Shown one piece after another: positions 1 through 31,094 of a stretch of 64,000 bases of DNA (positions are counted from its first letter, which is position 1; each line of letters opens with the position of its first letter). This stretch comes from Candidatus Omnitrophota bacterium (GTDB lineage: Bacteria > Omnitrophota > Gorgyraeia > Zapsychrales > Zapsychraceae): contig JAGQKV010000013.1 of assembly GCA_020429915.1 (NCBI GenBank), forward strand, positions 132,689-196,688, written 5' to 3'. Below the pieces are notes generated by a model, which saw only the letters and a list, made by a program, of their open reading frames with translations, had not been told where the DNA came from and did not search any database. Position numbers and translations under genes: made by a program.

Positions 1-1083
1 CTGGTGAATTCGCGTTTGCGCGGGGTCGATGCTGATCAAACGGCCGACCATATCCACGCACTCAGCGGATATCTCACTCACGAAGGAGATGCGGCCGCCG
101 TTCCGGAGGGGTTGGGTGAATCGGTCGCGGAACTGCAGGTTGCGCAAAAGGCGATTGCCGCGGCCATTGCCGACCGTCACATGAATCCCCAGGTCGTACG
201 TGATCTCATCGTTGAAGAATTGGCCACCGTGGTGCCGTTCCGCGTACAGCGGGCGCTGGCGGGCCGGGATAACGCGGTGCTGGTCGTCGACGATTCCGTA
301 CGTGAGGCGGTTGAGTCGGCGGGAGATCCGGTGACGGTCGAGAAATACCACAGCCGCGGCGGCGAAGTGGCCTTGATTGAGAGCACCTATGATCCGGTCA
401 CCGGCAGGACCCGACATATATCCTACGGACGACAAGGCGTGGCCCCGTATTTCAACATCCTCGTGGACGGTGATCAGCGGGACGAAAGCACCGACGTGAT
501 CATCGGCCTGTATGAAGGCGGCGGCTACATCTCCGAATCGAGCACCCGGTTAAGCAAGACGGCCACGCTGGACGGACGTCAGATTACGATCGACAGCCGC
601 TATGACGCGCAAAGCAACCGGACCACCCATGCCTTCGCAGGCATCGCCACCGGCCCGCGGCAGGACCGTGTTCCCGGCTTTGAATTGGTCGAGCCCGAAC
701 ACGGCTTTTTTGTGCAACGCAGCGGGGCGGAGATCCTGGCCTTACGGGCCCGGGGATACTATCCCGATGCGGCGGTTATGGCTGCCCCGGGAGCGGCGGC
801 CGTCAGCGGGGGCGAGCAGAAGTACGGGGGTATCGATTTGAATATCCAACTGCTTGATCTGCAGATCAAACGCGATGAGACGGGTATTCCTCTGCCGGTG
901 ACACAGCAGCCATTGGAGGAACTGCACATTGAAGGCTTCGTGCCGGTGATCATCAATATTGTTCCGTTGAACAATCTTCCGCTCATTTTGGGCATGGACA
1001 ATAATTCACCGGTACGGGATAATGACAGCGGCGATCAACGCATGGCCGAGGCGGCCGCTCTCAATCGAAACGACAGATCGTGA
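1..1083 (+). CDS. Partial secreted-type protein with GGIDL/PVI C-terminal module
   Basis: The reading frame is open from the first base, so the 5' end is probably outside the window; the first in-frame start seen is GTG at 4. The visible 359 residues match no enzyme family I recognise. Near residue 276 it has GGIDLN, and 39 residues later PVIIN followed by a hydrophobic Pro/Leu-rich strand (VPLNNLPLIL) and a hydrophilic tail of about 29 residues. The same module ends the next gene and the protein at 27927-31094. The stop TGA overlaps the ATG of the next gene (TGATG), which implies translational coupling and a shared operon. Being secreted is inferred from its sister proteins, since the N-terminus is missing here. 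Confidence 0.8.
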   Translation: MVNSRLRGVDADQTADHIHALSGYLTHEGDAAAVPEGLGESVAELQVAQKAIAAAIADRHMNPQVVRDLIVEELATVVPFRVQRALAGRDNAVLVVDDSVREAVESAGDPVTVEKYHSRGGEVALIESTYDPVTGRTRHISYGRQGVAPYFNILVDGDQRDESTDVIIGLYEGGGYISESSTRLSKTATLDGRQITIDSRYDAQSNRTTHAFAGIATGPRQDRVPGFELVEPEHGFFVQRSGAEILALRARGYYPDAAVMAAPGAAAVSGGEQKYGGIDLNIQLLDLQIKRDETGIPLPVTQQPLEELHIEGFVPVIINIVPLNNLPLILGMDNNSPVRDNDSGDQRMAEAAALNRNDRS

Positions 1084-4000
1084 TGACAACTCATTTCAAA
1101 AACACAATTAGCATAGGCTTGCAGCGCGTGATGGCTATCATCTGCGCGGCGGTCATGGTTTTCAGCGGGCCGGTACCGCTGGCGCGGGCCGCGGACTTGG
1201 GGTGGAGAGATCTTGCGCCGGGCGAGATGATCGGCCCGAGTCGAACTTTTTCTCCTGTTCTTTTGAAGGGTATGATTCTTGATCCGAACGATCCGCTGCG
1301 GTTTCAGTTTGTAGTCGACAGCGGTTCGCTGGACATGACCAGCGCCCAGGTCAAGAGCGCCTCACAAAAGCTGGTGCGGTATTTTATGTCCGGTTTGACC
1401 ATCCCGAAATCGGAGCTGTGGGTAAACCTTTCACCTTACGAAGGCGACCGGATTATCACGGCCGAGCTCAGCCGGACGGAATTGGGTCAGGACCTGTTGG
1501 TCCAGGATTATCTGTTGAAGCAGCTCACGTCGACATTGATCTATCCGGAAGATGATCTCGGCGAGGAATTCTGGCAAAGGATTTACACCAAGGCCCATGA
1601 GCAGTACGGGGTTTCCGAACTGCCGATCGCCACTTTTAACAAGGTTTGGGTCCTGCCGGAGAAGGCGGTTATTGCAGAGCACGGCCTGAGTGTGGAGATC
1701 GTGGAGAGCCGTCTTAAAGTCATGCTGGACCGTGACTACGTGGCAATGCAGGCGAACGGAAAAAAGACTGATAACCAGGCGGATGAGGATCTCAATGTCC
1801 TTTCATCGACGGTGCTGCGCGACCTGATCGTTCCGGAGATTGAAAAAGAAATCAATAACGGCGAGAATTTCGCGGCGCTGCGGCAGATCTACCATTCTCT
1901 GATATTGGCCAAATGGTATAAAGAGACGATCACCAACAGTCTGTTGTCCCAGGTGTATGTGGACCGGCAGAAGGTACTCGGCATCGACCTGGCCGATCCG
2001 GACATTCGCGAGAAAGTTTACCGGCGCTATCTGGATGCGTTTCAAATCGGAGTTTTTGACTATGTGCGTGAGGAATACGACAGCTATTCCCACGAAATGA
2101 TCCCTCGCAAGTATTTCTCGGGCGGGATAACGCGACTTTTGAATATGCCGTTGACCAGGGATGTCTCCGGACGTGAGGTCCCGATCACAGGTGAACGCTT
2201 TATCCTGGATATCGGAACGTTTCCTCGCTACCAGGGGGACAAGGCCGTGCTGGGCGAATCCGGTTCCCAGGAGCCGTTGGTAAGGGAAGTGCGCGTGTTC
2301 GACCTGTTTTTCTCGGAGGCGCAAAAAGAGCGGCGCTGGCGACGGGATGAATTGGTGCCTTTGGGGGAGGCCGTTGACGCGCTGCTGGAGAAATTCGCGG
2401 GCAGGGACGTCCCTATCGAACGCTCCGACATTGAAAACTATCTGATCAACACACCGGGTTATCCGGTGGAAGGCAATGTTCATTTAGCCAAGACTCCGAC
2501 CCTGTTGCGTGGTGTCTCCAAAGGTTTGGAGGGTGTCGGAATCGGCCGGGCGACATTCTTCGAAAGGGAGGACGTCCAGTTCCAGTATCCTTTTGTCGCT
2601 CCCAATAACACCGCCGAGGTTCGGGATCAGAAAGTTTCTAACGAAAAACGTCTGGTCGGTGAGATTTTTCAAGGTGCCTTCCGCGCCGAGAGTGAGCTGG
2701 CTGCCGGAGCCGTGCTGGACCGTGTTATCAATGCCACCAGCGCCTTGATACAGGAGCAGGTTGAAAACCGGATGGAATTCGCCTACCGCTTGGTGCACGA
2801 ACTTGTCCGAAAGTCCAAGGAAGATTTTTTGATTGAATTGGGGTTAGGGGAAGAAGAAGTTCCTGCTGACTTTATCGATGAATTCAAAAAGGAACTGCTG
2901 AACATATACATACCGCGTTTGGTCGAGGCGCACGCCGAATCTCCGGAATATGTGACGGTTTTCGGCGACAACTACGCCTTATATCAGCGTCTTAAACTGA
3001 TGCGGGGGGCGTGGGCCGTATTATTGACGCATCCGTACGGATTGGACCGGATGCGCGAGTACTATCAGTTGTTACAGGATTACGTTCGCTTTCAGGAATT
3101 GCACGACGAACAAATTCGTAAGTCCGATGAAGAAAAAGATGAGCCGCGGATCGCGCGATTGCGTCGGGAAATGGAGAGGATCAACGGGCGTCTGAAGACA
3201 TTGCATAAGGAAATCGAAGGCTTACAGCAAAGTATGCAGGCGCAAAAATCCATGTTCTTCTTCGAATTTCTGCGTAAGACTCTCCAAAAAAGTGGCGAGG
3301 AACATGGTAATAATGCCTTTGCTATGATCCAGGCACACCGTAAGGAAATGGATGCCTTCTTCGAAATGATGCGTCAGGGCGGAACCCTGCCACGCAATAT
3401 GGAGGCGATCAAGGAGGCCTACACGGCGTTTACATTCGTTCAGGACCATCTTGACAGCCACGCCTACGTCATCGCCTATGAAGATGCCCCGGATCTTAAG
3501 GAACAGAAAATTAATCTGGAAATCGGGCGGTTTCTGAGCGTGTTGCGACGGGCGCGCGAACTATTTGTGCGCGAACAGTTGCGTTTGGAGGCCGCGCGTA
3601 AGGATGATTACAACGGCCAGTACTACGGTGAGATCCTCAAAGGATTGGAGTCCGAATCCGCAACCGCGGTCGCACTCTCCGATGGCGGCAGTCTTTTCAG
3701 CCGTTTTCTCGATTCGTTTGCCGAGTATGTCCAGGGGCGAATCAGTCAGCGCGGCGTTACCATTGAGCGGGGAATGATCAATTACATGGCATTTGCCCAT
3801 GATGACGATCTGCTGGCGGCCGCGGGGGATCGCGTGAAACTGCCTGAGTTTGCGGACGCGTCCGACAAGGAGCGCTTTCGCGACATGACCGTCGAATTCA
3901 TGATGATATTTTCTCAATTGCTCAAGGAAGAAACGATCCAGCAGGCAACGGAACCGATGGTCGTTTTTGTCGATCCGAGTATCGAAGCGCTGACTCCGAA

Positions 4001-5996
4001 CGAAGTCGGGACCATCCACGTCAAGTTTCCGAATATCGTAGCTATTGTGGAACAGGGCCGGTCGCCGCATGCAATCAACCAGTTCCCGCTGTCCGTCTCC
4101 GGCGTGTCCGGTTTTACCAAGGCCAACATCAAAGAGGGCGAATTGACTATTGTCGAAGGCAGCTCGCGTGGGCTTGGCGGTGTGACCGTTCGTCCGGATT
4201 TAAAGACAAGAGTCGCCGCTTACCAGTTGAGTGAGGATTTGGACCGGCGGCGCGAATATTTCAATGTCGTCGCGGCCAAGCCTTTGAAGATCGGCGGACG
4301 CACTTACCAAAGTTTTACCAGTATCGGCGTCAATCATCGCGAAGACCTGCGCCGGATGAACGCGCTCGGTATACCGAACGTGGGATTGCACCGGCTGGAA
4401 CTGATGTTCGAAGATCCCTACCGTCCGGACCTGCGCAACCAGGAACGTCAAATGGCCCAGGAATTCGAGAACATCCTGAACGAAGAGGTGTTCAGCGGTG
4501 ATTTGGGCGACGGGGTGCTGGGGCGTTATATTCCGCGGCTGGACGACATCGGCGGTGAAAAGGTGCCGCAAATCCTCAGTGATTATCTGGCCAAGGTCGA
4601 GGCCGCGGAAGGCAAAGGCCGGCGCGAAGAACTGAAAAAAGAGATTTTGACGGAATATTCCGGTACGGCGTTCTATTTTTACCGGGATGCAGGCGGCGAG
4701 CGCCCGTTCTATGAATACGGGCTGCGGCAGCTGCGCGCGCTGTTCCGAGCGTATCACAAGGCCACCAACAAGCGGCTGGGACTCACGTTTCCCAATGTGC
4801 GTGTTATTCCGGGTGTCGTCGGTGTAGACGATATTCTGGCAATGGTGGACGAAGCCAAGCAGCAGGCGGCCCAGGCGCTCTTTGAGGAGGAACGGGAGGA
4901 ATTGGCGGACCGGATCGCCAAGTTGCGCGAGCAAACCACCGGAGAGACCGCCGACGGTGAAACGACTGATGAAGAGCGCCGGGCGCACGAAGAGCGCGTG
5001 CGGGAGTTGGATATCCTGGACGAGCGGCTGAATTATTTTACCGAAGACCACGATATCTTTATCAGTCGACTGATCAAAGCCTTCGAAGGTGTCCAAATCG
5101 GTTTCTACGTGGAAGATGTTCGGGAGATCCCGCACTATGACGAAATGGTCCGTAAATCGGATTTTATCGCCATCGGGACCAATGACATGACGCAATCCCT
5201 GTTCCGTCGGGACTTCCCCAAACTGACGCGTTTCGATTCCCGCTACAGCCATCTTTTTGATGAAATGCAGCCGCGTCTGCTGGAAGTGAACTGGCTTATG
5301 GCGCGGATATCCGCCCGGCACCGCAAGCCGCTGCTGATCAGCGGGGACTGGGGTGATACGGTCCGTTGGGGCGGTTTTGTCGGGACGGCTTTAAGCCAGC
5401 GCTATTCTGCTGACGTTTATCCGGTGTCGTCGATTTCCAAGGCTGCGCGGATTCGCGCGTACATGCGCGAAATCTCAGTGGGCCGTTTGACGAAAGTTCC
5501 GGATTCAGAAAGCGAAGGGATATTCAGTGAAATGTTTGCCCGCCTGGAAGCGGCTTATGCGGACGGGCTCAATGAATTCCGCGATGTCCTGCACGGCGCC
5601 GAGGAGGAATACCTGGCCCCCGTGCAAAAACTGCGGGAGTCGCTGGATCCGGTCATCGAAAGCAAGGTCAGAGAGATGTCCGGTACCTCCGAGGGGTCGG
5701 ATAAGGCCCTGCTCGCCCGCGAGGAAACGGCGGATAATGTCGGGGGGATCGATCTTAATGAAATTCAGTTGCAACGCGCTGAAGCCGCGATTCGTATTGA
5801 ATTCGACCCGGCGAAAGTGGAGGCCATCCTGGATGCCGGAGTGATCGACGGCTTCACGCCTGTCATTATCAATGTGGCCCCGATGCCGGTCCTGCTGCCC
5901 CTGGCGGGGGGTGATTCCCGTGATCAACTTCTACTCGACGGTTCGGTCGGCGAGTTCTCCGCCCGGCGGGACGATCCGCTGCAACCGCAAACATAA
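1083..5996 (+). CDS. Giant secreted protein with PEP-utilising-enzyme-like region and GGIDL/PVI tail
   Basis: A 1637-residue protein starting at ATG 1083; a GTG one codon earlier is also in frame. Residues 1-38 are a signal peptide (hydrophobic core, then ARA-A). Residues about 55-360 are homologous to the N-terminal domain of the protein at 27927-31094; for example both contain WVNLSPYE, TFNKVW, LRQIYH and IPRKYFSGG. Residues about 700-740 are coiled-coil-like. From about 960 to 1450 the order of motifs resembles PTS enzyme I / PEP synthase / pyruvate phosphate dikinase: a swivelling-domain-like segment with SPHAI (His about 996), GLHRLELMF (about 1100), IGTNDMTQ (about 1364), then ISGDWGD (about 1420) where the family has a CGE motif. 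The catalytic Cys is therefore Ser here. GGIDLN lies near 1553 and PVIIN near 1593. An enzymatic role is doubtful; a structural or binding role is as likely. Confidence 0.9.
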   Translation: MTTHFKNTISIGLQRVMAIICAAVMVFSGPVPLARAADLGWRDLAPGEMIGPSRTFSPVLLKGMILDPNDPLRFQFVVDSGSLDMTSAQVKSASQKLVRYFMSGLTIPKSELWVNLSPYEGDRIITAELSRTELGQDLLVQDYLLKQLTSTLIYPEDDLGEEFWQRIYTKAHEQYGVSELPIATFNKVWVLPEKAVIAEHGLSVEIVESRLKVMLDRDYVAMQANGKKTDNQADEDLNVLSSTVLRDLIVPEIEKEINNGENFAALRQIYHSLILAKWYKETITNSLLSQVYVDRQKVLGIDLADPDIREKVYRRYLDAFQIGVFDYVREEYDSYSHEMIPRKYFSGGITRLLNMPLTRDVSGREVPITGERFILDIGTFPRYQGDKAVLGESGSQEPLVREVRVFDLFFSEAQKERRWRRDELVPLGEAVDALLEKFAGRDVPIERSDIENYLINTPGYPVEGNVHLAKTPTLLRGVSKGLEGVGIGRATFFEREDVQFQYPFVAPNNTAEVRDQKVSNEKRLVGEIFQGAFRAESELAAGAVLDRVINATSALIQEQVENRMEFAYRLVHELVRKSKEDFLIELGLGEEEVPADFIDEFKKELLNIYIPRLVEAHAESPEYVTVFGDNYALYQRLKLMRGAWAVLLTHPYGLDRMREYYQLLQDYVRFQELHDEQIRKSDEEKDEPRIARLRREMERINGRLKTLHKEIEGLQQSMQAQKSMFFFEFLRKTLQKSGEEHGNNAFAMIQAHRKEMDAFFEMMRQGGTLPRNMEAIKEAYTAFTFVQDHLDSHAYVIAYEDAPDLKEQKINLEIGRFLSVLRRARELFVREQLRLEAARKDDYNGQYYGEILKGLESESATAVALSDGGSLFSRFLDSFAEYVQGRISQRGVTIERGMINYMAFAHDDDLLAAAGDRVKLPEFADASDKERFRDMTVEFMMIFSQLLKEETIQQATEPMVVFVDPSIEALTPNEVGTIHVKFPNIVAIVEQGRSPHAINQFPLSVSGVSGFTKANIKEGELTIVEGSSRGLGGVTVRPDLKTRVAAYQLSEDLDRRREYFNVVAAKPLKIGGRTYQSFTSIGVNHREDLRRMNALGIPNVGLHRLELMFEDPYRPDLRNQERQMAQEFENILNEEVFSGDLGDGVLGRYIPRLDDIGGEKVPQILSDYLAKVEAAEGKGRREELKKEILTEYSGTAFYFYRDAGGERPFYEYGLRQLRALFRAYHKATNKRLGLTFPNVRVIPGVVGVDDILAMVDEAKQQAAQALFEEEREELADRIAKLREQTTGETADGETTDEERRAHEERVRELDILDERLNYFTEDHDIFISRLIKAFEGVQIGFYVEDVREIPHYDEMVRKSDFIAIGTNDMTQSLFRRDFPKLTRFDSRYSHLFDEMQPRLLEVNWLMARISARHRKPLLISGDWGDTVRWGGFVGTALSQRYSADVYPVSSISKAARIRAYMREISVGRLTKVPDSESEGIFSEMFARLEAAYADGLNEFRDVLHGAEEEYLAPVQKLRESLDPVIESKVREMSGTSEGSDKALLAREETADNVGGIDLNEIQLQRAEAAIRIEFDPAKVEAILDAGVIDGFTPVIINVAPMPVLLPLAGGDSRDQLLLDGSVGEFSARRDDPLQPQT

Positions 5997-6038
5997 CCCC
6001 TGCCAGAGCCATTTTCGGTTAACTATTCAGGATACATA

Positions 6039-6068
6039 TTGTCAAATCAAGGCGTTTCTATGTATAAT
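6039..6068 (+). promoter_or_regulatory. Sigma70-type promoter
   Basis: TTGTCA (6039-6044), an 18 bp spacer and a perfect TATAAT (6063-6068) lie about 30 bp upstream of the ATG at 6098. This is the likely start of the small-membrane-protein transcript. Confidence 0.75.
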
Positions 6069-6097
6069 ACGGGGGCATTAGGGGGGGAAGTAAGCGC

Positions 6098-6658
6098 ATG
6101 ACCTATCCGGATTCCCTGCGCGGGATCGCGCTGATCATCATTTCCAGTTTTATTACCATTTACGGGATCGTCGGAGGTATCTCCCAGATCTCGGGACAGA
6201 TGTACCGTGACGATTTGGTGTATCCCGTCAGTCTACAGAATCCCGGCAAAGAATTGCAGACGGCGCTGCTTACCGTGGACCGCGACGAGACCCGCTCGCT
6301 TTGGCTCCGGGTGCCGGACCGGCGCATTGAAAACCGGGATCTGCAGTTTCAACTCCGGTTGATTGACGACGCGGGCAACACCGTGTCCGATTGGAGTGAG
6401 GATTTTCGGTTGGGTTACCTGCGTAACAGCTCCGGCCGCAGGCAATATTACCGCATCGGCCAGCATGATTTCACCTCGGGATTCACCGGATATTTCCGAT
6501 ATGCCACCGGCGGCTCATGGAGGCCGACTTACAACGGAGTGCTGGTATTAAGGGATAAAGGGCAGGGGGCCGTCCCTTACAAATTTCTGGGGGTGATCGG
6601 GGTCGGTGTGATGATCCTCATCATCGGTTTGAGGCAATTGCCGACATCCACCAAGTAG
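6098..6658 (+). CDS. Hypothetical membrane-anchored protein
   Basis: A 186-residue protein of unknown family. An N-terminal membrane segment (about residues 10-30) is followed by a beta-rich extracytoplasmic domain of about 125 residues and a C-terminal membrane segment (about 163-180, FLGVIGVGVMILIIG). Both ends are thus anchored, with the middle domain probably outside the cytoplasm. A GGGGGAAG ribosome site precedes ATG 6098, and a strong promoter sits just upstream. It is the first of four consecutive small membrane-protein genes on the same strand, which may act together. Confidence 0.8.
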   Translation: MTYPDSLRGIALIIISSFITIYGIVGGISQISGQMYRDDLVYPVSLQNPGKELQTALLTVDRDETRSLWLRVPDRRIENRDLQFQLRLIDDAGNTVSDWSEDFRLGYLRNSSGRRQYYRIGQHDFTSGFTGYFRYATGGSWRPTYNGVLVLRDKGQGAVPYKFLGVIGVGVMILIIGLRQLPTSTK

Positions 6659-6682
6659 CCGTTTTAATCACTGGACTGCCAA

Positions 6683-6955
6683 ATGTCAGGAAATCCGCTC
6701 TTAAAACCCAAGAAAAATACGCTCGAGTCTATCAGCAATGTCTTTTTCGTGATCGCATTGGTTCTCACCGTCGGGTATTTCAGTCTGGCCGTGATTGCGG
6801 TGCGTCAAAAACAGGGCCAGTACAAGGATCTTTACCGCCGCGGGATGATTACCAAGCAGGACTTTGAGTACCGGATGGAAGATACCACCTACCTGCGCAT
6901 GATGCTTCATCCGCAAGATATCATCCCCTTTGAGAAATACTTCGGATCCCGATAA
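6683..6955 (+). CDS. Small hypothetical membrane protein
   Basis: A 90-residue protein with one clear membrane helix (about residues 20-40, VFFVIALVLTVGYFSLAVIAV) and a charged, probably cytoplasmic, C-terminal half. The gene lies 24 bp behind 6098-6658, so it is probably cotranscribed. No ribosome site is obvious before ATG 6683. I do not recognise the family. Confidence 0.65.
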   Translation: MSGNPLLKPKKNTLESISNVFFVIALVLTVGYFSLAVIAVRQKQGQYKDLYRRGMITKQDFEYRMEDTTYLRMMLHPQDIIPFEKYFGSR

Positions 6956-7005
6956 TCGGCGTTTGTTTTCCCGGTATACTCGTCACAAGCCAGGGAGGGT
7001 TGACC

Positions 7006-7404
7006 ATGTTAATCATATGGCGCGGGTGGGGGTGGATCGTGATTGCGATTGCCGTTGCCGCTTTTCTTGGGGCCGAATGGGCGGTGGAAACCGTGACGGG
7101 TGACGAGCAGTATTATCAGAATCACGAATGGACCAAACACCTGGCCGTTGCCGTGGTGTGTTTTGTTACCATGTTTACGGGATTCTATCTCAATCACTTC
7201 AGGCGCCTGCGCCGTGATGAATTGACCGGAGAAGTCACCGCCTTGTATCCCGCCCACACGCTTTACTATATTCCCATCGAATACTGGTCGTTGATCATCG
7301 TGATGTTTTTTGCGGGTGCCCAATTTCTGACTGAGCGCGAATTCGACCGGATCGAGGCGCAGCCCGCAGCTGAGAATCAGCTTAAGAAAAAGGTAAGCCC
7401 GTGA
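7006..7404 (+). CDS. Hypothetical membrane protein with two or three helices
   Basis: A 132-residue protein. ATG 7006 is preferred to the in-frame TTG at 7000 because GGGAGG at 6993-6998 gives a proper 7 bp spacing to the ATG. Helices are visible near residues 8-25, 45-62 and 90-108. The family is unknown. Its position among other small membrane proteins suggests a common membrane-associated role. Confidence 0.7.
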   Translation: MLIIWRGWGWIVIAIAVAAFLGAEWAVETVTGDEQYYQNHEWTKHLAVAVVCFVTMFTGFYLNHFRRLRRDELTGEVTALYPAHTLYYIPIEYWSLIIVMFFAGAQFLTEREFDRIEAQPAAENQLKKKVSP

Positions 7405-7493
7405 CCCGCGATGAATGGGAACAGATCCTCGATTAAAAGTAGATGTGCCGTACACGGCGGCCTTCTTAACGTACTCATGGGGAGGCCGGACAA

Positions 7494-8096: not shown

Positions 8097-8124
8097 GCGT
8101 TCGGACAGGTAAAGGGAGTGAATC

Positions 8125-22055: not shown

Positions 22056-22662
22056 CTTCGTCCGTCAATGTGCAGACATCTCAATCGCTCGAGGGCGAAA
22101 GAGGGTATGGACGGCGACTTCTTACCTATTGTTGTCCGCTCTGCTGACTGCCTGCACGCTGAACGATCCGCCGTACCGGCGGTTGCCAAATGGGGCACTG
22201 GAATATGTGGACAGGCGAAAACACAGGTTTATTCCAGAGTCTGTATCCGCTGGCAGTCAAACTGCAGAGACTGTTTCACCTGTTCGGCAACACGTATCTG
22301 TAAGCAGTAAGCCCACGACAGACGTTGTCGAGTACACAAATAGCGCCAGCTATATGTATCGGCAAATGGTTCGGGGAAAAATTAGTGCTATCGCTATCCG
22401 TATGATCGAAGATATGGTGGGTGCGTTTGATGAAGAGAAAGTTTTCGATGGAGAAAAAGTTAGGTTCCGTTTCGTCATCAATGCGGACGGTTCACTGGGC
22501 GGTTTCGAGATTTTGGACGAAAAAACCGAGGCAAGCCAGGAATTTCGGGACTTGGCATTAAAGGTAGTGGAGACAGCCGCTCCCTTCAATCCGGTCCCCC
22601 GGGAAGTGTTAGGAAATCACACAGGTATCACCTATGTCTTGGAGATTCGATACATGGAATAA
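22030..22662 (+). CDS. Lipoprotein with TonB-C-like domain, copy 2
   Basis: A 210-residue paralogue of the preceding lipoprotein. The lipobox LTAC is followed by TLNDPPYRRLPNGALEY, and the C-terminal domain has VRFRFVINADGSLGGFEIL and AAPFNPVPREV, a clear TonB-C-type pattern. ATG 22030 overlaps the upstream gene by 26 bases in another frame and gives a long n-region of about 40 residues before the Cys. No internal ATG, GTG or TTG in the right place is seen, so the start remains uncertain. Confidence 0.7.
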   Translation: MPRKIRLISFVRQCADISIARGRKRVWTATSYLLLSALLTACTLNDPPYRRLPNGALEYVDRRKHRFIPESVSAGSQTAETVSPVRQHVSVSSKPTTDVVEYTNSASYMYRQMVRGKISAIAIRMIEDMVGAFDEEKVFDGEKVRFRFVINADGSLGGFEILDEKTEASQEFRDLALKVVETAAPFNPVPREVLGNHTGITYVLEIRYME

Positions 22663-22687
22663 TGACGGTGGTTCGCATAGTACGCGG

Positions 22688-23104
22688 ATGATTGCCTTAT
22701 CCCTTGCTGTGTTCGTGACGATTATTTTGTCCGGACTGTTGACGGGCTGTGGTCTGAGCCCGGAGGAGAAGGCCCGCATTCAGCGGGAGGCCGAGGAGCG
22801 CGGGCGGCAGTTGTATTTGACCAACGGCTGCGCGGTGTGCCACGGCAAGGAAGGCCGCGGCGACGGCCTGAACGCCGCGCGGTACTATCCGCCGCCGACG
22901 AATTTCTATGACCCAGCCAATTACCGACAAGGTCCGAGCCGCGGTGCCATGATGCGTACGATCAAGAACGGTGTTCCCCGCGAAGGAACGGCCATGGCTG
23001 GTTTCGACCATTTAACCGATATCGAATTACGCGACCTCGCCATTTATCTCGAATCACTGCAGGCCGCGGGTCAACAATCCCCCAACAAGGAGAATGCGCC
23101 ATGA
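22688..23104 (+). CDS. Cytochrome c lipoprotein
   Basis: A 138-residue monoheme cytochrome c. ATG 22688 begins a lipoprotein signal ending in LTGC; the frame upstream runs into the previous gene and adds no signal. The heme-binding motif CAVCH is at about residues 50-54, and a distal Met ligand candidate lies in GTAMAGF. The domain resembles short class I cytochromes of respiratory chains (CccA/CtaG-neighbour type). Its stop overlaps the PCuAC start by four bases, so it belongs to a copper/respiration operon. Confidence 0.88.
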   Translation: MIALSLAVFVTIILSGLLTGCGLSPEEKARIQREAEERGRQLYLTNGCAVCHGKEGRGDGLNAARYYPPPTNFYDPANYRQGPSRGAMMRTIKNGVPREGTAMAGFDHLTDIELRDLAIYLESLQAAGQQSPNKENAP

Positions 23105-23631
23105 GAAACCGTCTATTGATAACCGCTGTCAGCCTGTTGGCTTGTATCTATCCGGCCTCCTCACACGCGATGGAACCGGTCCAGGAAGATGTCCTTGAGA
23201 TCAGCAATGCCTGGGTTCGGGGGGTTCCGCCGGTGGTCGGTCATACGGCGGCCTATATGGAGCTGATGAATCCGACTGAAGAAGAGGTTGTCATTACCGC
23301 TGTTTATACCGCCGTAGCGGAGCACGCGGAAATGCACATGATGACGATGGATAACGACCGTATGACCATGCGCAAAGTCGATGAGATCCGCATCCCGGCC
23401 GGTGAAACCTTCAAGCTCGAACCGAGCGGCTGGCACATCATGCTCATAGATCTTAAAGGGCGCCTTACCGCCGGGGACACGGTCACCCTCGATTTAACCT
23501 TTGCCGATGGACGCCACCAAGGCGTGTCCGCTGTCGTCAAGCGCATGGACATGATGGCCATCGATGACGAAAAAGGCAGCCACAAAGGGAGCCATCACGG
23601 AAGTATGAAGGGAAGTCACAAAGGTAGCTAG
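23101..23631 (+). CDS. PCuAC copper chaperone with His/Met-rich tail
   Basis: A 176-residue periplasmic protein with signal peptide ending SSHA. The PCuAC copper site is visible as HAEMHMM ... M ... GWHIML, matching the HxnMx21HxM family pattern. PCuAC delivers Cu(I) to the CuA or CuB centre of cytochrome oxidase. The C-terminus is extended by a repetitive tail of KGSH/GSM units (about residues 160-176), which should bind extra metal. It lies between cytochrome c and SCO genes, which agrees with oxidase assembly. Confidence 0.92.
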   Translation: MRNRLLITAVSLLACIYPASSHAMEPVQEDVLEISNAWVRGVPPVVGHTAAYMELMNPTEEEVVITAVYTAVAEHAEMHMMTMDNDRMTMRKVDEIRIPAGETFKLEPSGWHIMLIDLKGRLTAGDTVTLDLTFADGRHQGVSAVVKRMDMMAIDDEKGSHKGSHHGSMKGSHKGS

Positions 23632-23649
23632 TTAGCAGGGAGCATCCTT

Positions 23650-24255
23650 ATGAAACGAAACACTATCAGCGTGGGATTATTGTCAGTGGCCATTATCCTG
23701 GCCGGCCGACCGGCGACAGCCGCGGCGGACCAGCGGCTTCAGTATTATGACGCGATCAATCCCGACAAAAATTTCAAGCTCACCGATCAAAACGGCGAAC
23801 CGTTTGAATTGAAGGGCCTGAGGGGCAAGGTCGTCTTGCTGTTCTTCGGTTATCTCTCCTGTCCCGACGTTTGTCCGGTCACACTGTCCAAACTCAGCCG
23901 AGTCTACCAGCAGCTGGACGACAAGGAGCGCGAGGAGATCCAGACGGTCTTTATTTCCGTCGACAGCTACCGCGACACGCCGGACAAGATCAAAGAATAC
24001 CTGAGCTACTTCAGTATTAACGCGGTCGGTCTGACCGGAGATCAGATGGACATCGACTTTGTGGTCGAAGATTTCGACGCCTGGTATCAGATCGTCAAGA
24101 GTTCATCGGCGCTGGGCTATCTGATCGACCACACCAGCTATGTGTATCTGCTTGACCAGGAGGGCAATGTCCGCTATTTGTTCCGGCCCGATGATGACGT
24201 GGATCACATGACAAAAATCATCCGCCAGGTCCACCGTGCCAAAACCGGAAATTGA
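23650..24255 (+). CDS. SCO family copper-binding thioredoxin-fold protein
   Basis: A 201-residue exported protein with a signal peptide (about residues 1-26). The SCO copper site CPDVC (about residues 73-77) and the distal His in DHTSYVYLLD (about 161) are intact. SCO proteins insert copper or reduce thiols in cytochrome oxidase subunit II. It follows PCuAC by 18 bp. Confidence 0.92.
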   Translation: MKRNTISVGLLSVAIILAGRPATAAADQRLQYYDAINPDKNFKLTDQNGEPFELKGLRGKVVLLFFGYLSCPDVCPVTLSKLSRVYQQLDDKEREEIQTVFISVDSYRDTPDKIKEYLSYFSINAVGLTGDQMDIDFVVEDFDAWYQIVKSSSALGYLIDHTSYVYLLDQEGNVRYLFRPDDDVDHMTKIIRQVHRAKTGN

Positions 24256-24279
24256 TCGCGGTGATCAGGGAGGGGTTTG

Positions 24280-25074
24280 ATGGTGAGCCGTATTATTTTG
24301 TGTCTGCTGTTGATAGCGGGAGCCGGGCTGCTGCCGGGGGCCGGACCTGCGGAGAGTCAAACGGTCATGGACTATAGCGCTTACGACGCCCTTTTGCGCG
24401 AGTATGTGAACCCGCGCGGCCTCGTCGATTATGAACGGCTTTGCGCGGATCCCGCTTTGGGATCAGTCACTGAACAATTGTCGCGTGCGGACCCCGACCG
24501 GCTGGACCGCGGAGAAGCCCTGGCCTTCTGGATCAACGTCTACAATGCCTTCACGCTGAAGGTCATCTGTGATAACTATCCGCTGGAGAGCATCAACGAC
24601 TTGCACGGCGGAGGCTTGATCCTCGGGACGGTTTTCAAGACCACGATATGGGACAAAAAGTGGTTTGCGATCAACGGCGAGAAAATGTCCCTTGGGCATG
24701 TGGAACACAAGATCCTGCGGCCGCGGTTCGAGGATCCGCGTATCCATTTTGCGATCGTTTGTGCCGCCCGCAGTTGTCCGCCGTTGCGCGCCGAGGCCTA
24801 TATCGCCGGTCGGATCGAAGGCCAACTGGATGATCAGGGGCGGATTTTCCTGTCCCGCCCGGAGCTGAACCGTTTTGATCTGAAGAGCCAGACGGCGCAT
24901 TTATCGGGGATCTTCAAGTGGTTCCTCAAGGACTTCGGGAAGAATAAAAAGGATCTGCTGACGTATCTCGCCGCGTTCACACCGGCCCCGGAGGTCCGGG
25001 ACTTGCTGGAGAATCAACCCGGAGCGTGGACCGTGCGTTGGAACGACTACGATTGGAGCCTCAATAGGCAGTGA
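24280..25074 (+). CDS. DUF547 domain protein
   Basis: A 264-residue exported protein with a signal peptide ending PAES-Q. The DUF547 hallmarks are clear: FWINVYNAFTLKVI, then HVEHKILRP, then RIHFAIVCAARSCPPLRAEAY with paired Cys. Function of the family is unresolved; it often accompanies SCO and oxidase genes, as here. ATG 24280 follows GGGAGGGG at good distance (the in-frame TTG one codon earlier is rejected). Confidence 0.88.
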   Translation: MVSRIILCLLLIAGAGLLPGAGPAESQTVMDYSAYDALLREYVNPRGLVDYERLCADPALGSVTEQLSRADPDRLDRGEALAFWINVYNAFTLKVICDNYPLESINDLHGGGLILGTVFKTTIWDKKWFAINGEKMSLGHVEHKILRPRFEDPRIHFAIVCAARSCPPLRAEAYIAGRIEGQLDDQGRIFLSRPELNRFDLKSQTAHLSGIFKWFLKDFGKNKKDLLTYLAAFTPAPEVRDLLENQPGAWTVRWNDYDWSLNRQ

Positions 25075-25125
25075 GCGGACGTTTTCTCGGCGGTAGGCAG
25101 ATTCCGCGGAAAGACGGTTAAGTGT

Positions 25126-25154
25126 TTGGTTTCAGACTGGGTAAGCCCTATAAT
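25126..25154 (+). promoter_or_regulatory. Sigma70-type promoter for purKE
   Basis: TTGGTT (25126-25131), a 17 bp spacer and TATAAT (25149-25154), about 42 bp before ATG 25196. Confidence 0.65.
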
Positions 25155-25195
25155 GAAGAAGCTTACCGGCAGGAACAGTCTAAGTCAGGGGGACA

Positions 25196-26353
25196 ATGGA
25201 AAACTTCTTCGGGAAAGAGATCCGGCTGGGCATTCTCAGAGGCGGTCAGCTCGGACGTATGCTGCTGCAACCGTGCATGAATTTCGGCATCATCCCGCAT
25301 ATCATGGACATCGATGAATCGGCGCCGGCCCGTCCGTATTGTCATCAATTTTCGTGCGGTGATGCCGGCAATTACGATGATGTTTACCGATTCGGTAAGG
25401 GTCTCGATGCGGTGACACTCGAGATTGAACACGTTAATCTCGACGCGCTGCAGCAACTGCAGCACGACGGCGTCAATGTCTTCCCTGATCCGACCCTCAT
25501 TGAGATCGTCCAGGACAAGGGGCTTCAAAAACAATTTTACCGCGACCGCGGACTGCCCACGGCGGACTTCTTTCTCGTCGATTCGGTCAAGGAATGGATG
25601 CAGACCGACATCGCTTTTCCCGTGGTACAGAAGGCGCGGCGGGAAGGATACGACGGCCGGGGGGTGGCTATCCTCAATGACCCGCAGGACCTGGGACGGG
25701 CCATCGATTCGCCGAGCGTGATTGAGACGCGCGTCGACATTAAAAAGGAAATCAGCGTGCTGGTTGCGCGCAATCAGGCCGGGCAGGTGAGCACCTTTCC
25801 TGCGGTGGAGATGGTCTTTCATGACGGCGTTCAGATGCTGGACTATCTGTTTGCCCCGGCGCGGATTCCGGCTAATCAGGGCCGTGAGGCGGTCGCGCTG
25901 GCCGAACGCTTGGCCCGGGAGGTTGGCTTGGTCGGATTGCTGGCCGTGGAGATGTTTGTGACGGCGGACGACCGGATCCTAATCAATGAGATCGCACCGC
26001 GTCCGCATAACAGCGGGCACCACACCATCGAGGCCTGCCGCACATCGCAGTTCGAGCAGCATATCCGTTCGATCTTCAACCTGCCGCTGGGTTCGACCGA
26101 GTTGATCGCGCCGGCAGTGATGGTCAACATCGTCGGTGAGCCGGGGCACAGCGGTCCGGTTGCGTACATCGGTATCGAACCGTTTCTCGAACTGCCCGGC
26201 GTGTATATCCACCGCTACGGCAAAAAAATTACCCGGCCTCATCGCAAGATGGGGCATGTGACGGTGGTGCGGGACAGTCTGGACGAAGCGCTCGAAATCG
26301 CGCAACATATCAAGGAGGAGGTCAAAGCAATATCATGTCAAAGCCAGTCGTAG
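25196..26353 (+). CDS. purK: 5-(carboxyamino)imidazole ribonucleotide synthase
   Basis: A 385-residue ATP-grasp enzyme that makes N5-CAIR from AIR, ATP and bicarbonate in purine synthesis. The typical start [16 protein letters not shown], the ATP-grasp segment [15 protein letters not shown] and the signature [19 protein letters not shown] are present. Length is normal. Its 3' end overlaps purE by 19 bases, so the two-step conversion is translated as one unit. Confidence 0.95.
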
Positions 26354-26835
26354 GAATCATTATGGGAAGCCAGTCGGACCTGACGGTGATGCAGGGGGCG
26401 GCCGACATGCTGAAGGAGTTTGACGTACCGTTTGAGATCACCGTGGTCTCGGCTCACCGCACGCCGGAGCGTATGATGACGTATGCCAAGGAGGCGCGCG
26501 GGAGGGCCTTAAAGGTGATCATCGCCGGTGCAGGCGGAGCCGCTCATTTGCCCGGTATGGTGGCGTCGGTGACCACGCTGCCGGTGATCGGTGTTCCGAT
26601 TAAGTCTTCCAACAGCCTGGACGGATGGGATTCATTGTTGTCGATCGCACAGATGCCTAAAGGGGTGCCGGTGGCCACGGTCGCGGTTAACGGCGCGCAG
26701 AATGCCGGTGTGCTGGCAGCGCAGATCCTGGCCGTCAGCGATGAAGATCTCGCCGCGCGATTGGCCGCATATAAAAAGGCGCTTGAAGAGAAAGTGCAGC
26801 AGATGGCCCGGGACGTTGAGGGGGGGAAGGGTTAA
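26335..26835 (+). CDS. purE: 5-(carboxyamino)imidazole ribonucleotide mutase
   Basis: A 166-residue class I PurE that converts N5-CAIR to CAIR. The conserved [19 protein letters not shown] (catalytic His) and [11 protein letters not shown] motifs are all visible. It overlaps purK. Its last bases overlap the convergent DUF1835 gene by four bases, an unusually tight tail-to-tail arrangement. Confidence 0.96.
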
Positions 26836-27800
26836 GGCTTGTCGACCCTGACGAGACACTCCTGCCGTGGATCAAAGCAGTAGAGATTGTCCGGCGTTAA
26901 ATGCGTTCCCCCGATCCAGCGGTCGATTCCGTTGAGGACGAGGTGATTAAGCGTGCCTTGCACAACGTCCCTGCCCGCCGCTGTCAGCGATATCTGTTGT
27001 TGATAAACCTCCTGCGCGGATCCCCGCGACAGCCTCGTCGTGTATCCCTCAATGAGCGGCGACGGACAGAACGCCAATTCTTCCAGGTATTTCACAAAGC
27101 TCCAGTCCCCTAAATATTTTACTTCTTCCTCCCGGCAATATTCCCCGAACAGCAAGTTCACCGGCTTGACACTGTCTATGAGAAGTTCGAGGGTATAGCG
27201 CTGCGTCAAGGTGAGGCCGTTAGTGCGGTAGGGAAAGGTCTGCAGAAGGCGTTTGGTAATGGACGGCAGGAACACCAACGGGCCGGTATAATCGACGAAC
27301 AGCTGCAAGGCCCGTGGATCCGGGGCGGTGAAGGCCTTCCAGAAGCGGCTGCCGTCCGCGTAATCCTGTAAAGTGACAGGACGCTCATTTTCTCGCAGGG
27401 CAGGGAGTTGCGGCGGCGGGATCATACCCAGGTAGTTCTCGGATTGCATCAGGGATATGACCGGTCGCGGTTGGATCCGGTTAAGATAGTCCAGTATCTG
27501 GCACAGTTGCAGTTGGTCGTACAGGTCGTGTTCAAAACATAGGCTGACCTTCTCATAAGTCTCCAGGCTCTCCAGAATTCTGTCTCGCCGGTCAAAATCT
27601 TTGCGGACTTCTTCCGGGGATTCTCCGAAGGCGCCGGATAAATAGCGGCAGCGTGTGTCAGCCAGATCTTCCCAGGAATCGGACCCCGGGACCGGTCCGT
27701 CATGCAGGACATCCTTCCAGCACAGGATTTCCTCCTGAAAGCCGGCTTGCCGCATGCTGTCTGCGGCGCTGTCGCCGTTGGTGATGATTAATTCGGCCAT
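26832..27800 (-). CDS. DUF1835 domain protein
   Basis: A 322-residue cytoplasmic protein. The DUF1835 N-terminus [17 protein letters not shown], followed by [15 protein letters not shown] and [15 protein letters not shown], is clear. The C-terminal 150 residues ([13 protein letters not shown]...ITAAGRDV winged-helix-like) are as in related longer members. Function is unknown. The start at 27800 is chosen because the domain begins there; the longer frame adds residues that overlap the divergent gene's leader. Confidence 0.85.
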
Positions 27801-27870
27801 CCTGTATGCTAACACACACAAGATCGGGAATAAACGGGGAAACTCGTGAAAAAAGCCCGGCATCGACTAT

Positions 27871-27899
27871 TTGGCACTTGGCGCGGATTGCTATATACT
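27871..27899 (+). promoter_or_regulatory. Sigma70-type promoter for the giant secreted protein
   Basis: TTGGCA (27871-27876), a 17 bp spacer and TATACT (27894-27899). It falls inside the upstream extension of the frame, so the GTG at 27846 is not the start. Confidence 0.8.
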
Positions 27900-27912
27900 A
27901 GTACCAGTACTA
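27899..27912. promoter_or_regulatory. 14 bp palindrome at the transcription start, candidate operator
   Basis: TAGTAC, then CA, then GTACTA. It begins on the last base of the -10 element and covers the expected +1, an ideal place for a repressor. The ribosome site AAAGGA follows directly. Confidence 0.5.
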
Positions 27913-27926
27913 AAGGAATATTTTCC

Positions 27927-30900
27927 ATGAAAAAACTACGCCACCATCTCTGGTCCCGATTCGCCGCCGTCATAGCGGGAGTCTGCCTGCTGACGACAGG
28001 AGTGCCCGTACCCGCGGTATGGGCGCAGACTCAGCTGAGCCTACCGCTGCCCGGCACGCGGGTGCATCTGAGCGCCGGCTACGCACCGCTGACCTTGCGC
28101 GGGGTGATGGTACATGCCGACAATCCTTTCCGCTTTGATTTCATTGTTGATACCGGTGATTCCGACCTGCGGGCGGAGGCGCTCGAGCAGGAAAGCACGC
28201 GGATGATCCGTTACTTCCTGGCGGCGCTGACCGTCCCGGAAGACGAGCAGTGGGTGAATCTCTCTCCGTACGAGCAGCAACGCATTATTCCCGGCTCCTT
28301 CGGGATTACCGACATGGGCCGCGACCTGTTGGCGCAGGATTATATCCTCAAACAAGTCACCGCCTCGCTGATCTATCCCGAGGAAGATCTCGGCAAAGAA
28401 TTCTGGGAGCGGGTCTACGCCCGCGCCCAGCGCATGTACGGGACCACCGATATCCCGGTCAACACCTTCAATAAGGTGTGGATCGTTCCGGACAGCGCCA
28501 CGGTTTTTGAGAACGGTACCGCCGCCTTCGTTACCCAGAGTCGGCTGAAGATCATGCTGGAGGAAGATTACCTCGCGCTCGACAGCAATGATGGCAACCG
28601 CGCGATCGGGCTCGACCAGTTCATCAAAGATGAGGCCAAAGAAGTCAACGAGGTTTCATCGGCGATCGTCCGGGAGATTGTCATCCCGGAGTTGGAAAAG
28701 GAAGTCAACGAGGGCAAAAATTTCGCCCAGCTGCGGCAGATTTATCACGCGATGGTCCTCGCGACGTGGTTGAAGGAGAATTTGAAGAGTCACGTCCTCG
28801 GATTAAAGTACGTGAACCAGAACAAGGTGAACGGCGTCGATATCGAGGATAAGGATGCCAAAGAGCAGATTTATCAGCGTTACCTGCAGGCGTACCGGGA
28901 CGGGGCATACAGCTACATCAAAGAAGAATACGACCCGGTCACCCGAGAGATTATCCCGCGCAAGTACTTCTCGGGCGGCGCGGTGTTCGGCCGCGCGGTC
29001 ACCCGTGCGACGGACTACGCGCGTTTGACAGATAACTCTTTGCGCACCGTCGTGGACGGCAGCTTTTTGGGGGACAAGCTGGCCCTCAACGTTATCCTGG
29101 CGGACCCGCAACGGCGCGTGAATCGGGACCGGGCCGTTCTGCAGAATCTGCCTGTTTTTGCTAACCGAAACGATTTAGAGGCGGCCGTCGTCGCGACGGA
29201 CGCCGAAACCCTGCGCTATCCGATTTTGACGTTGCTTGACGGCAGCCGCGTTATCAACAAAACCCGCTTGAATCGTAATCCGAGCGCCCGTATCTATGAA
29301 GCGTTAATATCGCGCGCCAATTTTGAAGTGGCTCGGTTAATCGGTTTCGATCAAATCAGTCCGGTTCAGGTGTTGGTCACGCCGAACGGTGTGTCATCGA
29401 TCGAACAGGTCTGGGGAGGCGGACTGGCGGAGAACCTCCCGGGACTGGGTGTGGACGCCTTGCGCTTCCGGGATGCGCTGGACTTTCGGATTGACGGCCA
29501 AACCGATTTTTACCGGCAGCTTGTTGAAACATTTGGACCCGAGTTTGTTTCATCGGACCTGTACCGGGTATTTTCCAACGACCCTTTTGACTCCATACTG
29601 CCTGAAAACATCCGTATGGCCGCCGCGCAGACCCAAGGACTTGCGAATTTGCGTTGGGTAGACTATGGCGAATCTTTCAGCTATTTGGACGATACGGAAC
29701 TGGAGGACTTGCTTGACTACCTGATCGACCGGGCGGATTTCATCCGGACCTCAATGGCGGACCGGTTGGTGCAGCGGATAGTTTCAATCACGCAGGATGA
29801 GGTGCAGGCTATTGCGGAGAATGTCTTTGGAGAGGCTACCGCCGGCAATTACAGCGAGTTGCCGGAAGCCGACCGTAATGTCGCGGCGGCTGCCCGGGAG
29901 CAGGCCAGGAATGATTTTATCGAAGGGTTTACGCAACGGCAGGGAGTATTTCGTGAACTGCAGGATTATCTTGCACGGGAAGCTCCGGCAGAGGCGGCGG
30001 CCGTCGGTGAGGCCGGTTCCCGGGATGCGGCTGTTTTGACGGACGTCCGTGTGACCGATAACGCTTTAGTTCGTCGGGGAATGACGGATTTGTCGGAACT
30101 GTTGGACCGTCTGCCGCAAGAGATTGCCGAGGAGGTGGCCCGAGACGCCAACATGATTAAAGTCTATTCCGGAGTTTCTCCTGAGGTGGGTTTCACGCAG
30201 TCGCCTTTTCAGTTCATTCTGGGACGACTCGATAATGTGGCGCGGACCGTCCTGATCGAAGCGATCCGCGCGGACCGGGATTACGACGTGATCCAGCACC
30301 GGGAGGACCGGTTCTCCATCGTCAACGTGCGGGCCGCGCTCGAGGTTATCGCGGCGAATCCCGATCTCTTCCCGGCCGAGGCGCAGGGAAACCGGGAATG
30401 GGTGGTCAACGAATTTGCGCAATGGACGAATGCTGCCGGTCCGCAGTGGGAGACGCGCACCGTCCGCTACGGTCTGATGAGCGGATACCCGCGCAGCGCG
30501 GCTCAGCAGTACATCGCGTTCGACCGGACGCTCAAACGTTTTAAAGACATCTTTTCGGCGCAGGCGGATTCGATTGAGTTCTTTGCCAAGCGGGAGATCC
30601 CGGCGAATCAACGCGAGGCCGCGCGCCAGCATTTCCAGAATGTTTTGATCGGCTATGATGTCAGCGATGAAGAGATTGACCTCATCATAGACAGTTCGGT
30701 GGTCGGCCGATCTTTTCCCATGATCGCCATGAACGCGGAGCACCGCGAGTGGGTCGCGGAGGCAGAGGACCTGCTGGCCGAAGGTGAGCGGTACCTGGGC
30801 GAAATACGCCCGCAGTTCTCCGCAGAAGAGGCGCCGACCGGCACCGAGGACGGCGGACAACGGGATGCCGCCGTGCTGCCGGAAGCCGAAGCGCCGGTCG

Positions 30901-31094
30901 GTGGTATCGATCTGAGCCCGGAGAATCTGAAGTTATTGCGGGAGGGTAACCGCACGGAGATCGACCTGACACCTGTGGGGATTGAAAACATCGATATCCG
31001 CGGATTGACCCCGGTCATCTTTCAAATAACCCCGATCACCAATCTTCCTTTATTACTCTCCCAAGTCGGAGTCCCAGCCGGTCCGGCGGCCTAG
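27927..31094 (+). CDS. Giant secreted protein with shared N-terminal domain and GGIDL/PVI tail
   Basis: A 1055-residue protein. ATG 27927 is preceded by AAAGGA at 9 bp and by a promoter that excludes the GTG at 27846. Residues 1-34 are a signal peptide (VPVPAVWA-Q). Residues about 45-360 are homologous to the N-domain of the protein at 1083-5996, sharing WVNLSPYE, LIYPEEDLG, TFNKVWI, LRQIYHAMVLA and IIPRKYFSGG. The middle, about 360-980, is helical, acidic and unrecognised; it lacks the PEP-enzyme-like region of the other protein. GGIDLS lies near residue 992 and PVIF near 1029. The C-terminus then ends 24 residues later. The common ends and different middles suggest a modular secreted family. 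Confidence 0.9.
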   Translation: MKKLRHHLWSRFAAVIAGVCLLTTGVPVPAVWAQTQLSLPLPGTRVHLSAGYAPLTLRGVMVHADNPFRFDFIVDTGDSDLRAEALEQESTRMIRYFLAALTVPEDEQWVNLSPYEQQRIIPGSFGITDMGRDLLAQDYILKQVTASLIYPEEDLGKEFWERVYARAQRMYGTTDIPVNTFNKVWIVPDSATVFENGTAAFVTQSRLKIMLEEDYLALDSNDGNRAIGLDQFIKDEAKEVNEVSSAIVREIVIPELEKEVNEGKNFAQLRQIYHAMVLATWLKENLKSHVLGLKYVNQNKVNGVDIEDKDAKEQIYQRYLQAYRDGAYSYIKEEYDPVTREIIPRKYFSGGAVFGRAVTRATDYARLTDNSLRTVVDGSFLGDKLALNVILADPQRRVNRDRAVLQNLPVFANRNDLEAAVVATDAETLRYPILTLLDGSRVINKTRLNRNPSARIYEALISRANFEVARLIGFDQISPVQVLVTPNGVSSIEQVWGGGLAENLPGLGVDALRFRDALDFRIDGQTDFYRQLVETFGPEFVSSDLYRVFSNDPFDSILPENIRMAAAQTQGLANLRWVDYGESFSYLDDTELEDLLDYLIDRADFIRTSMADRLVQRIVSITQDEVQAIAENVFGEATAGNYSELPEADRNVAAAAREQARNDFIEGFTQRQGVFRELQDYLAREAPAEAAAVGEAGSRDAAVLTDVRVTDNALVRRGMTDLSELLDRLPQEIAEEVARDANMIKVYSGVSPEVGFTQSPFQFILGRLDNVARTVLIEAIRADRDYDVIQHREDRFSIVNVRAALEVIAANPDLFPAEAQGNREWVVNEFAQWTNAAGPQWETRTVRYGLMSGYPRSAAQQYIAFDRTLKRFKDIFSAQADSIEFFAKREIPANQREAARQHFQNVLIGYDVSDEEIDLIIDSSVVGRSFPMIAMNAEHREWVAEAEDLLAEGERYLGEIRPQFSAEEAPTGTEDGGQRDAAVLPEAEAPVGGIDLSPENLKLLREGNRTEIDLTPVGIENIDIRGLTPVIFQITPITNLPLLLSQVGVPAGPAA

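Follow-up and report, generated by a model that had tools for sequence, protein, structure and literature searches.

The 64-kb window analysed here, the final 64 kb of a 197-kb contig (JAGQKV010000013.1) in the 3.35-Mb genome of a Candidatus Omnitrophota bacterium (GCA_020429915.1), encodes three proteins (P0001, P0002 and P0003) that carry a conserved C-terminal tail opening with the motif GGIDL. They belong to a family of large proteins in which, almost certainly, two conserved ends, an N-terminal module (the ‘N-module’) and the tail, serve as a constant scaffold with a variable body between them. Our best overall reading, to which we give about an even chance, is that the GGIDL tail represents the C-terminal half of a two-part scaffold of exported Omnitrophota polyproteins.

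An initial annotation of the window had noticed that all three proteins end with GGIDL followed by PVI, with the proline of PVI at position 40, 40 and 38 counted from the first G; both the motifs and the spacing are borne out by the sequences, and the similarity goes beyond chance, with a profile of the three tails giving 36 matches in the same genome (E ≤ 10) and matches in 81 of a set of 93 genomes, this one included (E ≤ 1). The description of the proteins as otherwise different does not hold, in that P0002 and P0003 are 41% identical across 380 N-terminal residues. A profile of this N-terminal region, the N-module, has 336 positions, contains WVNLSPYE and ends in YFSGG; it is located just after a signal-peptide-like stretch, and has 35 matches in the genome (E 1.8e-160 to 2.1e-136). 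Every one of the 35 N-module frames gives a tail match too (E 7.6e-31 to 0.026, with three weaker than 0.005; matches to the two modules were assigned to the same frame by contig and frame length), and the one remaining tail match (E 0.26) lies in a frame without an N-module. Each of the 34 complete proteins of this genome has a single tail, near its C-terminus; the conserved part covers about 57 residues, with 0-44 more residues to the stop, or 92 in one protein. These complete frames are 865-5139 residues in length and take up about 217 kb of the genome. The 35th protein, split between two loci, enters the N-module and tail counts and is not among the 34 bodies considered below, and four incomplete or duplicate frames were dropped before counting. 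No Pfam or NCBIfam model matched the constant ends of the members scanned.

The initial annotation had taken the tail for a free-standing tag on unlike proteins. Against this, the tail comes with the N-module, co-varies with it, and appears in a structural model that suggests a joint fold. N-module distance correlates with tail distance (Mantel r = 0.43; P = 0.001 for 33 proteins of this genome, rows with a tail E > 0.01 being excluded, and P = 0.0005 for 67 relatives). The AlphaFold2 model of a 662-residue relative, for which frames with X were left out of the alignment (92 kept, 68 used), has a mean predicted local distance difference test score (pLDDT) of 65.7 and a predicted template modelling score (pTM) of 0.60; pLDDT is 70-98 in the N-module (residues 21-300) and 75-94 in the tail blocks, as against 25-68 in the body. 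Here, the tail consists of one 7-residue strand and one helix. Because such a lone strand needs a partner, and the best-defined strands of the model are those of the N-module, we consider it probable that the tail would close on the N-module as a ‘clasp’, leaving the body as a large loop. A search with two whole-protein models gave no credible Foldseek or VIA-align match for the N-module fold, the lists being filled by the bodies.

The bodies held between these ends (417-4640 residues in this genome) are nearly unrelated from protein to protein: an all-against-all BLAST of the 34 found similarity in just 2 of 561 pairs, and in 29 of 5050 when these bodies were mixed with those of relatives, and in four cases two N-modules that are 83-85% identical are joined to bodies that do not match. 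The body of P0003 has a match in one of the 92 other genomes (32% identity, query residues 78-334); that of P0002 has clear matches (E ≤ 1e-26) in two genomes and weak ones in 16 more, all on the stretch of its PEP-utilising domain. Some bodies are nevertheless orthologous across genomes, for example those of L083 and L130 (45% over 2511 columns).

A Pfam scan, covering all 34 bodies and 904 residues of the 35th, found a family at E ≤ 0.001 in 24 of the 34, often an enzyme of cytosolic type. Such metabolic enzymes normally work only inside the producing cell, so their presence in apparently exported proteins is surprising. Three consecutive family genes (G000:C1:67000-87000; L060, L074) carry malate synthase, class I aldolase and isocitrate lyase; UDP-glucose pyrophosphorylase and phosphoglucomutase (PGM) domain I; and a GTP-type PEPCK, the last of these in the 35th protein; together they look like an operon for carbon rerouting. 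A single 3031-residue protein of this genome holds malate synthase, aldolase and isocitrate lyase in one chain, and a 4075-residue frame ending about 10 kb before the window holds branching-enzyme domains, glycogen synthase and 4-alpha-glucanotransferase (E 2.8e-157). Other bodies contain PPDK, glutamate dehydrogenase, methyltransferases, NUDIX, a PLP enzyme, a receiver domain, HATPase and HTH, with FBPase in L073 and glycosyltransferase-5 in the P0001 protein falling just below the Pfam cut-off. Relatives add TIM, enolase, apgM and FBPase_3 to this list, and chains with several enzymes and a recurring motif are found among them too (TIM with enolase in L235, FBPase_3 with TIM in L218). In one family protein (L088:1705-8805), parts of the sequence are WD40 propeller repeats, for which the best Pfam models are eukaryotic, and a TIM match was observed in a 14,085-residue open frame (G264:C41:5859-6416).

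In 51 genomes selected by hand (48 with the N-module and 3 without), isocitrate lyase was found in five, with all 12 rows lying in frames of 2143-4340 residues that also give a tail match; eight of 14 control genomes have the enzyme. Class I aldolase was found in four of the 51, five of six rows being in frames of 1180-3299 residues, with a stand-alone enzyme in one genome; the 14 controls gave no class I aldolase of any kind. An ordinary stand-alone TIM is present in 48 of 48 genomes, and nine have extra TIM matches in long frames (both family ends were seen in three of these nine and one end in two); a quick tree that carries no support values places the embedded TIMs outside the group formed by the stand-alone enzymes. 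We read the cargo as being not only for the producing cell’s own cytoplasm. By sequence, the solved structures nearest to the embedded aldolase are presumably a bacterial class I enzyme and then eukaryotic ones; those nearest to the embedded isocitrate lyase are longer-chain enzymes of about 540-560 residues. Motifs that we take to be catalytic are kept in many of the embedded enzymes: KKCGH in the isocitrate lyase of two genomes, TSHAAV in PPDK, the K/H/E set of TIM in L218 (by eye), L233 and L235, and (by eye) the NUDIX box and phosphatase motifs.

Short motifs recur along the bodies, and we regard these as candidate linkers. The strict form, DxA(V/M)(L/T), occurs 65 times in the bodies of this genome versus 5.2 after shuffling and 34 times versus 4.7 in relatives, as compared with 20 versus 14.7 in 636 proteins of these loci that are outside the family; DxAM alone gives 73 versus 8.4 in relatives and 12 versus 24.0 in the non-family set. 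A first pattern had given 130 versus 25. In 17 divergent bodies (a set from which L231 and frames with an N-module E > 1e-40 were excluded) the strict motif was absent, with 1.0 expected from shuffling, and SSP takes its place: 64 versus 6.7 in these bodies, 38 versus 11.1 in relatives, and 37 versus 34.3 in the non-family set. Motif number rises with body length in this genome (Spearman 0.68), and the last broad motif lies no more than 16 residues from the tail in 25 of the 34 bodies, two having none. Motifs also tend to avoid recognised domains, counted on the best Pfam-printed stretch per family: in 23 of the 34 bodies, two of 54 strict motifs (8.7 expected) and four of 131 broad ones (21.0 expected) lie inside Pfam stretches, an earlier count on fewer bodies having given none of 45 strict motifs, and in seven divergent proteins none of 31 SSP motifs does so (4.9 expected). 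A whole TIM (residues 1406-1667) is bracketed by SSP at 1395 and 1674, and a whole apgM (483-913) by SSP at 470 and 928; L235 has no SSP between its TIM and enolase.

The proteins of the family begin, as judged by eye, with a signal-peptide-like N-terminus. A relaxed rule applied to longer segments was passed by 34 of 34 proteins of this genome and 92 of 93 relatives, and also by 275 of 636 non-family proteins; the stretch of P0002 had failed the earlier rule, its segment having been cut too short, and passed the crude relaxed one. Sec export of the precursor seems very probable. The tag-like picture drawn by the initial annotation is partly borne out: there is a C-terminal module, on proteins with signal-peptide-like starts, in tens of copies per genome, but it does not stand free of the N-module. 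The likeness that it saw to T9SS (type IX secretion system) and PEP-CTERM tails is not sustained: P0001-P0003 matched no T9SS or other sorting-tail Pfam family at E ≤ 1, five members matched no T9SS, PEP-CTERM or other sorting NCBIfam family at E ≤ 0.1, and by eye the tails inspected contain neither a PEP-CTERM-type membrane helix nor a basic cluster. A known sorting tail was rejected as the identity of the module, no model having matched in the members scanned. That no partner transport gene is obvious, as first noted for the window, agrees with a clustering of neighbouring open reading frames (ORFs) at 112 loci (the window, 31 others of this genome and 80 of relatives), in which no partner gene recurs and neighbours cluster only into generic families of at most 10 loci each, which by eye are response regulators, glycosyltransferases and trp genes.

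Within the 93 genomes, the N-module was found in 82 (E ≤ 0.001), 79 of which are in common with the tail, and tail profile matches reach 49 per genome. One genome of the same family, 95% complete, has neither N-module nor tail. Separately, we observed that G017, G034 and G036, of the same family or order, give no match to either. The N-module is present in 71 of 238 genomes drawn across the phylum. A scan of GTDB contigs confirmed at least 475 stretches; among the best 80, 72 are named as Omnitrophota or Omnitrophica, four belong to Candidatus Aceula (placed under Omnitrophota) and two to Candidatus Elulimicrobium (which NCBI files elsewhere). The 76 complete frames with either module at these 80 loci comprise 62 with both, nine with the N-module only and five with the tail only, and five of the nine N-only frames directly precede the five tail-only frames; of the other N-only frames, three have diverged tails at their ends (two of these still showing GGIDL) and the last is a fragment of 140 residues. 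In L160 the tail match is split into two pieces, and L166, L171 and L190 have an extra piece at E 74-300. Family frames span 681 to about 6160 residues among the matches listed.

More distant members, 21 frames with an N-module at E ≤ 1e-5 on 20 stretches from other genomes, keep the N-module close after the start in 20 cases (it is mid-protein in L232). In 18 of these frames, a GGID-like element is found no further than 134 residues from the end, four of them having it within 17 residues; of the rest, one ends in GGLLLSQVRLR, one is cut off and one has no such element. In these distant kin, the tail can be reduced to a mere terminus of about 13 residues, for example GGIDLRNMRINLR. Internal copies also occur, two of GGIDL in L221 and one of GGVDF, just before a receiver domain, in L223. 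The initial annotation had expected that the module would not be found inside proteins: this holds in the window’s order, where a single tail lies near the C-terminus in 34 of 34 complete proteins of this genome and in 62 of 62 complete two-module relatives from the best 80 loci, and fails in distant kin because of the internal copies in L221 and L223. As a separate observation, L221 has three GGIDL copies in all (residues 689, 1146 and 1774), of which two are internal and near SSP motifs.

Drawing these results together, we envisage that a precursor with a signal-peptide-like start would be exported by Sec, and that its ends would close on each other, such that the clasp would serve to protect, hold or deliver the chain. 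If the chain were then cut or flexed at its linker motifs, single enzymes might be set free or become able to work, and these would have their action beyond the cytoplasm of the producer, most likely in a place that offers nucleotides and metabolites, such as a partner, host or prey cell. Processing at the linker motifs we put at slightly below an even chance, and action in another cell is a more tentative suggestion. We also speculate, as an unlikely extension, that enzymes leading from the glyoxylate shunt through gluconeogenesis to glycogen could be exported as clasped polyproteins and cut into working enzymes in the other cell, where carbon of the partner or prey would be converted into a store for the bacterium to harvest.

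The tail could be a plain sorting or attachment tag, read by a transporter or transpeptidase, with its link to the N-module due to common descent only. Its constant place near the C-terminus in the window’s order, and the bare 13-residue ends of distant kin, are what a tag might show, but we hold this to be distinctly improbable: no tail match in the genome better than E 0.26 lacks an N-module, the five complete tail-only frames of relatives directly follow an N-only frame, L221 and L223 have internal copies, the tail is modelled confidently beside an ill-defined body, and there is neither a match to a known sorting model nor a recurrent neighbour gene. An unlikely alternative of a different sort keeps the polyproteins with their producer, in an internal or periplasmic compartment resembling a glyoxysome or a glycogen-making space. 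The cargo of this genome does resemble a pathway leading from acetate units to glycogen, some of its steps not being seen, and a search for an ATP/ADP translocase gave no direct sign of intracellular parasite life (the controls being silent too). Yet several of the steps need ATP, GTP, UTP or nucleotide sugars, which the periplasm lacks, and domains of HTH, receiver and histidine-kinase-like type occur in the bodies as well.

Giant surface proteins or adhesins assembled from reused enzyme folds, uncut and not working as enzymes, would explain the very large size of the chains, the HEAT and WD40 repeats of some bodies and the tandem and degenerate TIM copies, and giant ORFs of Omnitrophota are described as possible adhesins in the portions of PMC10066038 available to us. 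The preserved catalytic motifs of isocitrate lyase, PPDK, TIM, NUDIX and the phosphatase make this a poor prospect, as do the two whole single enzymes bracketed by SSP. Certain TIM copies do stand in tandem in one chain (L234, L236), some of them without catalytic motifs.

Several observations weigh against the exported, clasped polyprotein that we favour. As regards the cargo, 10 of the 34 bodies, that of P0003 included, have no Pfam match at E ≤ 0.001; the embedded TIMs of L234 and L236 are without catalytic motifs; the enolase of L235 has (by eye) one usually conserved residue changed; and the PGM of L060 matches domain I only. With respect to the clasp, the first model, that of P0003 (AlphaFold2, 27 rows), was weaker, at a mean pLDDT of 52, and the tail strand could pair with weak strands of the body instead, the contact with the N-module being deduced from pLDDT and one strand. 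For the linkers, DxA and SSP were picked by eye in the very sets that gave their first counts, making the relatives the independent test; in relatives, DxAV(L/T) is not enriched (5 versus 4.3 shuffled), the enrichment coming only from DxAM, and only 11 of 61 have their last broad motif within 16 residues of the tail, 14 having none. The two strict motifs that fall inside domains count in the same direction. The relaxed signal-peptide rule says little alone, because so many non-family proteins pass it, and the first rule, in which segments often ended short of the cleavage site, passed 23 of 34 proteins of this genome, 47 of 85 relatives, 5 of 11 divergent members and 151 of 636 non-family proteins. 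Finally, no secretion partner or processing protease was identified among the neighbour genes of the 112 loci, and the ATP/ADP translocase was found in none of the 93 genomes, with control genomes equally silent.

Coordinates of the three window proteins and of their features are collected in the table below. Elsewhere in the window, we observed by eye adjoining genes for a small cytochrome-like protein with CAVCHG, a PCuAC-like protein and an SCO1-like protein (22634-24255), and purK-like and purE-like genes (25196-26835).

Table. Family proteins of the window and their parts (window positions unless a contig is given; HMM, hidden Markov model).
Feature	Position	Strand	Basis
P0001, last 360 residues of a 1735-residue family protein	1..1083	+	
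N-module of the P0001 protein	G000:C25:128642-129652, upstream of window		profile match
Linker motif DNAVL in P0001	268..282	+	motif search
GGIDL tail of P0001	826..996	+	HMM match, residues 276-332, E 1e-27
P0002, complete family protein, 1637 residues	1083..5996	+	
Signal-peptide-like stretch of P0002	1083..1193	+	end by eye at ...PLARAA; crude relaxed rule passed
N-module of P0002	1152..2132	+	HMM E 1.2e-143; profile starts inside signal-peptide-like stretch
Linker motif DKAVL in P0002	2238..2252	+	motif search
PEP-utilising enzyme C-terminal domain (part), body of P0002	5019..5354	+	Pfam PF02896, E 7.1e-13
Linker motif DKALL (broad form), shortly before P0002 tail	5700..5714	+	motif search
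GGIDL tail of P0002	5742..5903	+	HMM E 7.4e-13
P0003, complete family protein, 1055 residues	27927..31094	+	
Signal-peptide-like stretch of P0003	27927..28025	+	end by eye at ...PAVWA; crude relaxed rule passed
N-module of P0003	27981..28985	+	HMM E 8.6e-159; profile starts inside signal-peptide-like stretch
Variable body of P0003	28986..30899	+	no Pfam match at E ≤ 0.01
Linker motif DRAVL in P0003	29127..29141	+	motif search
Linker motif DAAVL in P0003	30024..30038	+	motif search
Linker motif DNALV (broad form) in P0003	30057..30071	+	motif search
Linker motif DAAVL, shortly before P0003 tail	30864..30878	+	motif search
GGIDL tail of P0003	30900..31064	+	HMM E 5.1e-20

Should these proteins indeed be exported enzyme polyproteins, they would represent a novel means of packaging and dispatching metabolic enzymes; this would suggest a role for many large unexplained proteins of a widespread uncultured phylum, and would make the open question of host dependence in Omnitrophota directly testable. 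Among the literature matches listed, with subscription papers and preprints outside their scope, there is no description of the family.

Conserved C-terminal modules on many exported proteins are familiar from T9SS C-terminal domains and PEP-CTERM tails, from which the family tail differs in giving no sequence match and in having a regular N-terminal partner module. Viral and eukaryotic polyproteins likewise string several enzymes along a single chain, short motifs recurring between the enzymes, and the family appears analogous to these in its multiple enzymes and recurring motifs; unlike them, it is bacterial and has signal-peptide-like starts and conserved ends, and its chains are cut only by conjecture. 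Closer in lineage are the giant ORFs of Omnitrophota (>20 kb) reported by Seymour et al. 2023 (PMC10066038), which, in the portions of that paper available to us, have few annotated domains and are given an adhesin-like reading. The family resembles them in belonging to the same phylum, in the great length of its proteins and in having a proposed extracellular role; as compared with the same portions, it is set apart by a defined N-module and tail, repeated linkers and enzymes of central metabolism. The giant-ORF definition of a single ORF of more than 20 kb does not extend to the 34 complete frames of this genome, at 865-5139 residues. A further parallel is provided by Chlamydia, of the PVC group, which, according to the accessible parts of three reports, places glycogen synthase, branching enzyme, amylomaltase and phosphoglucomutase outside its own cell, without a signal peptide and by type 3 secretion (PMC4829429, PMC3722199, PMC9251005). 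By analogy, and as read here from sequence, the family too would seem to place glycogen enzymes outside the cell (compare PMC4829429); the difference, as far as those parts of the reports go, is that its enzymes are fused in polyproteins behind a Sec-type, signal-peptide-like start.

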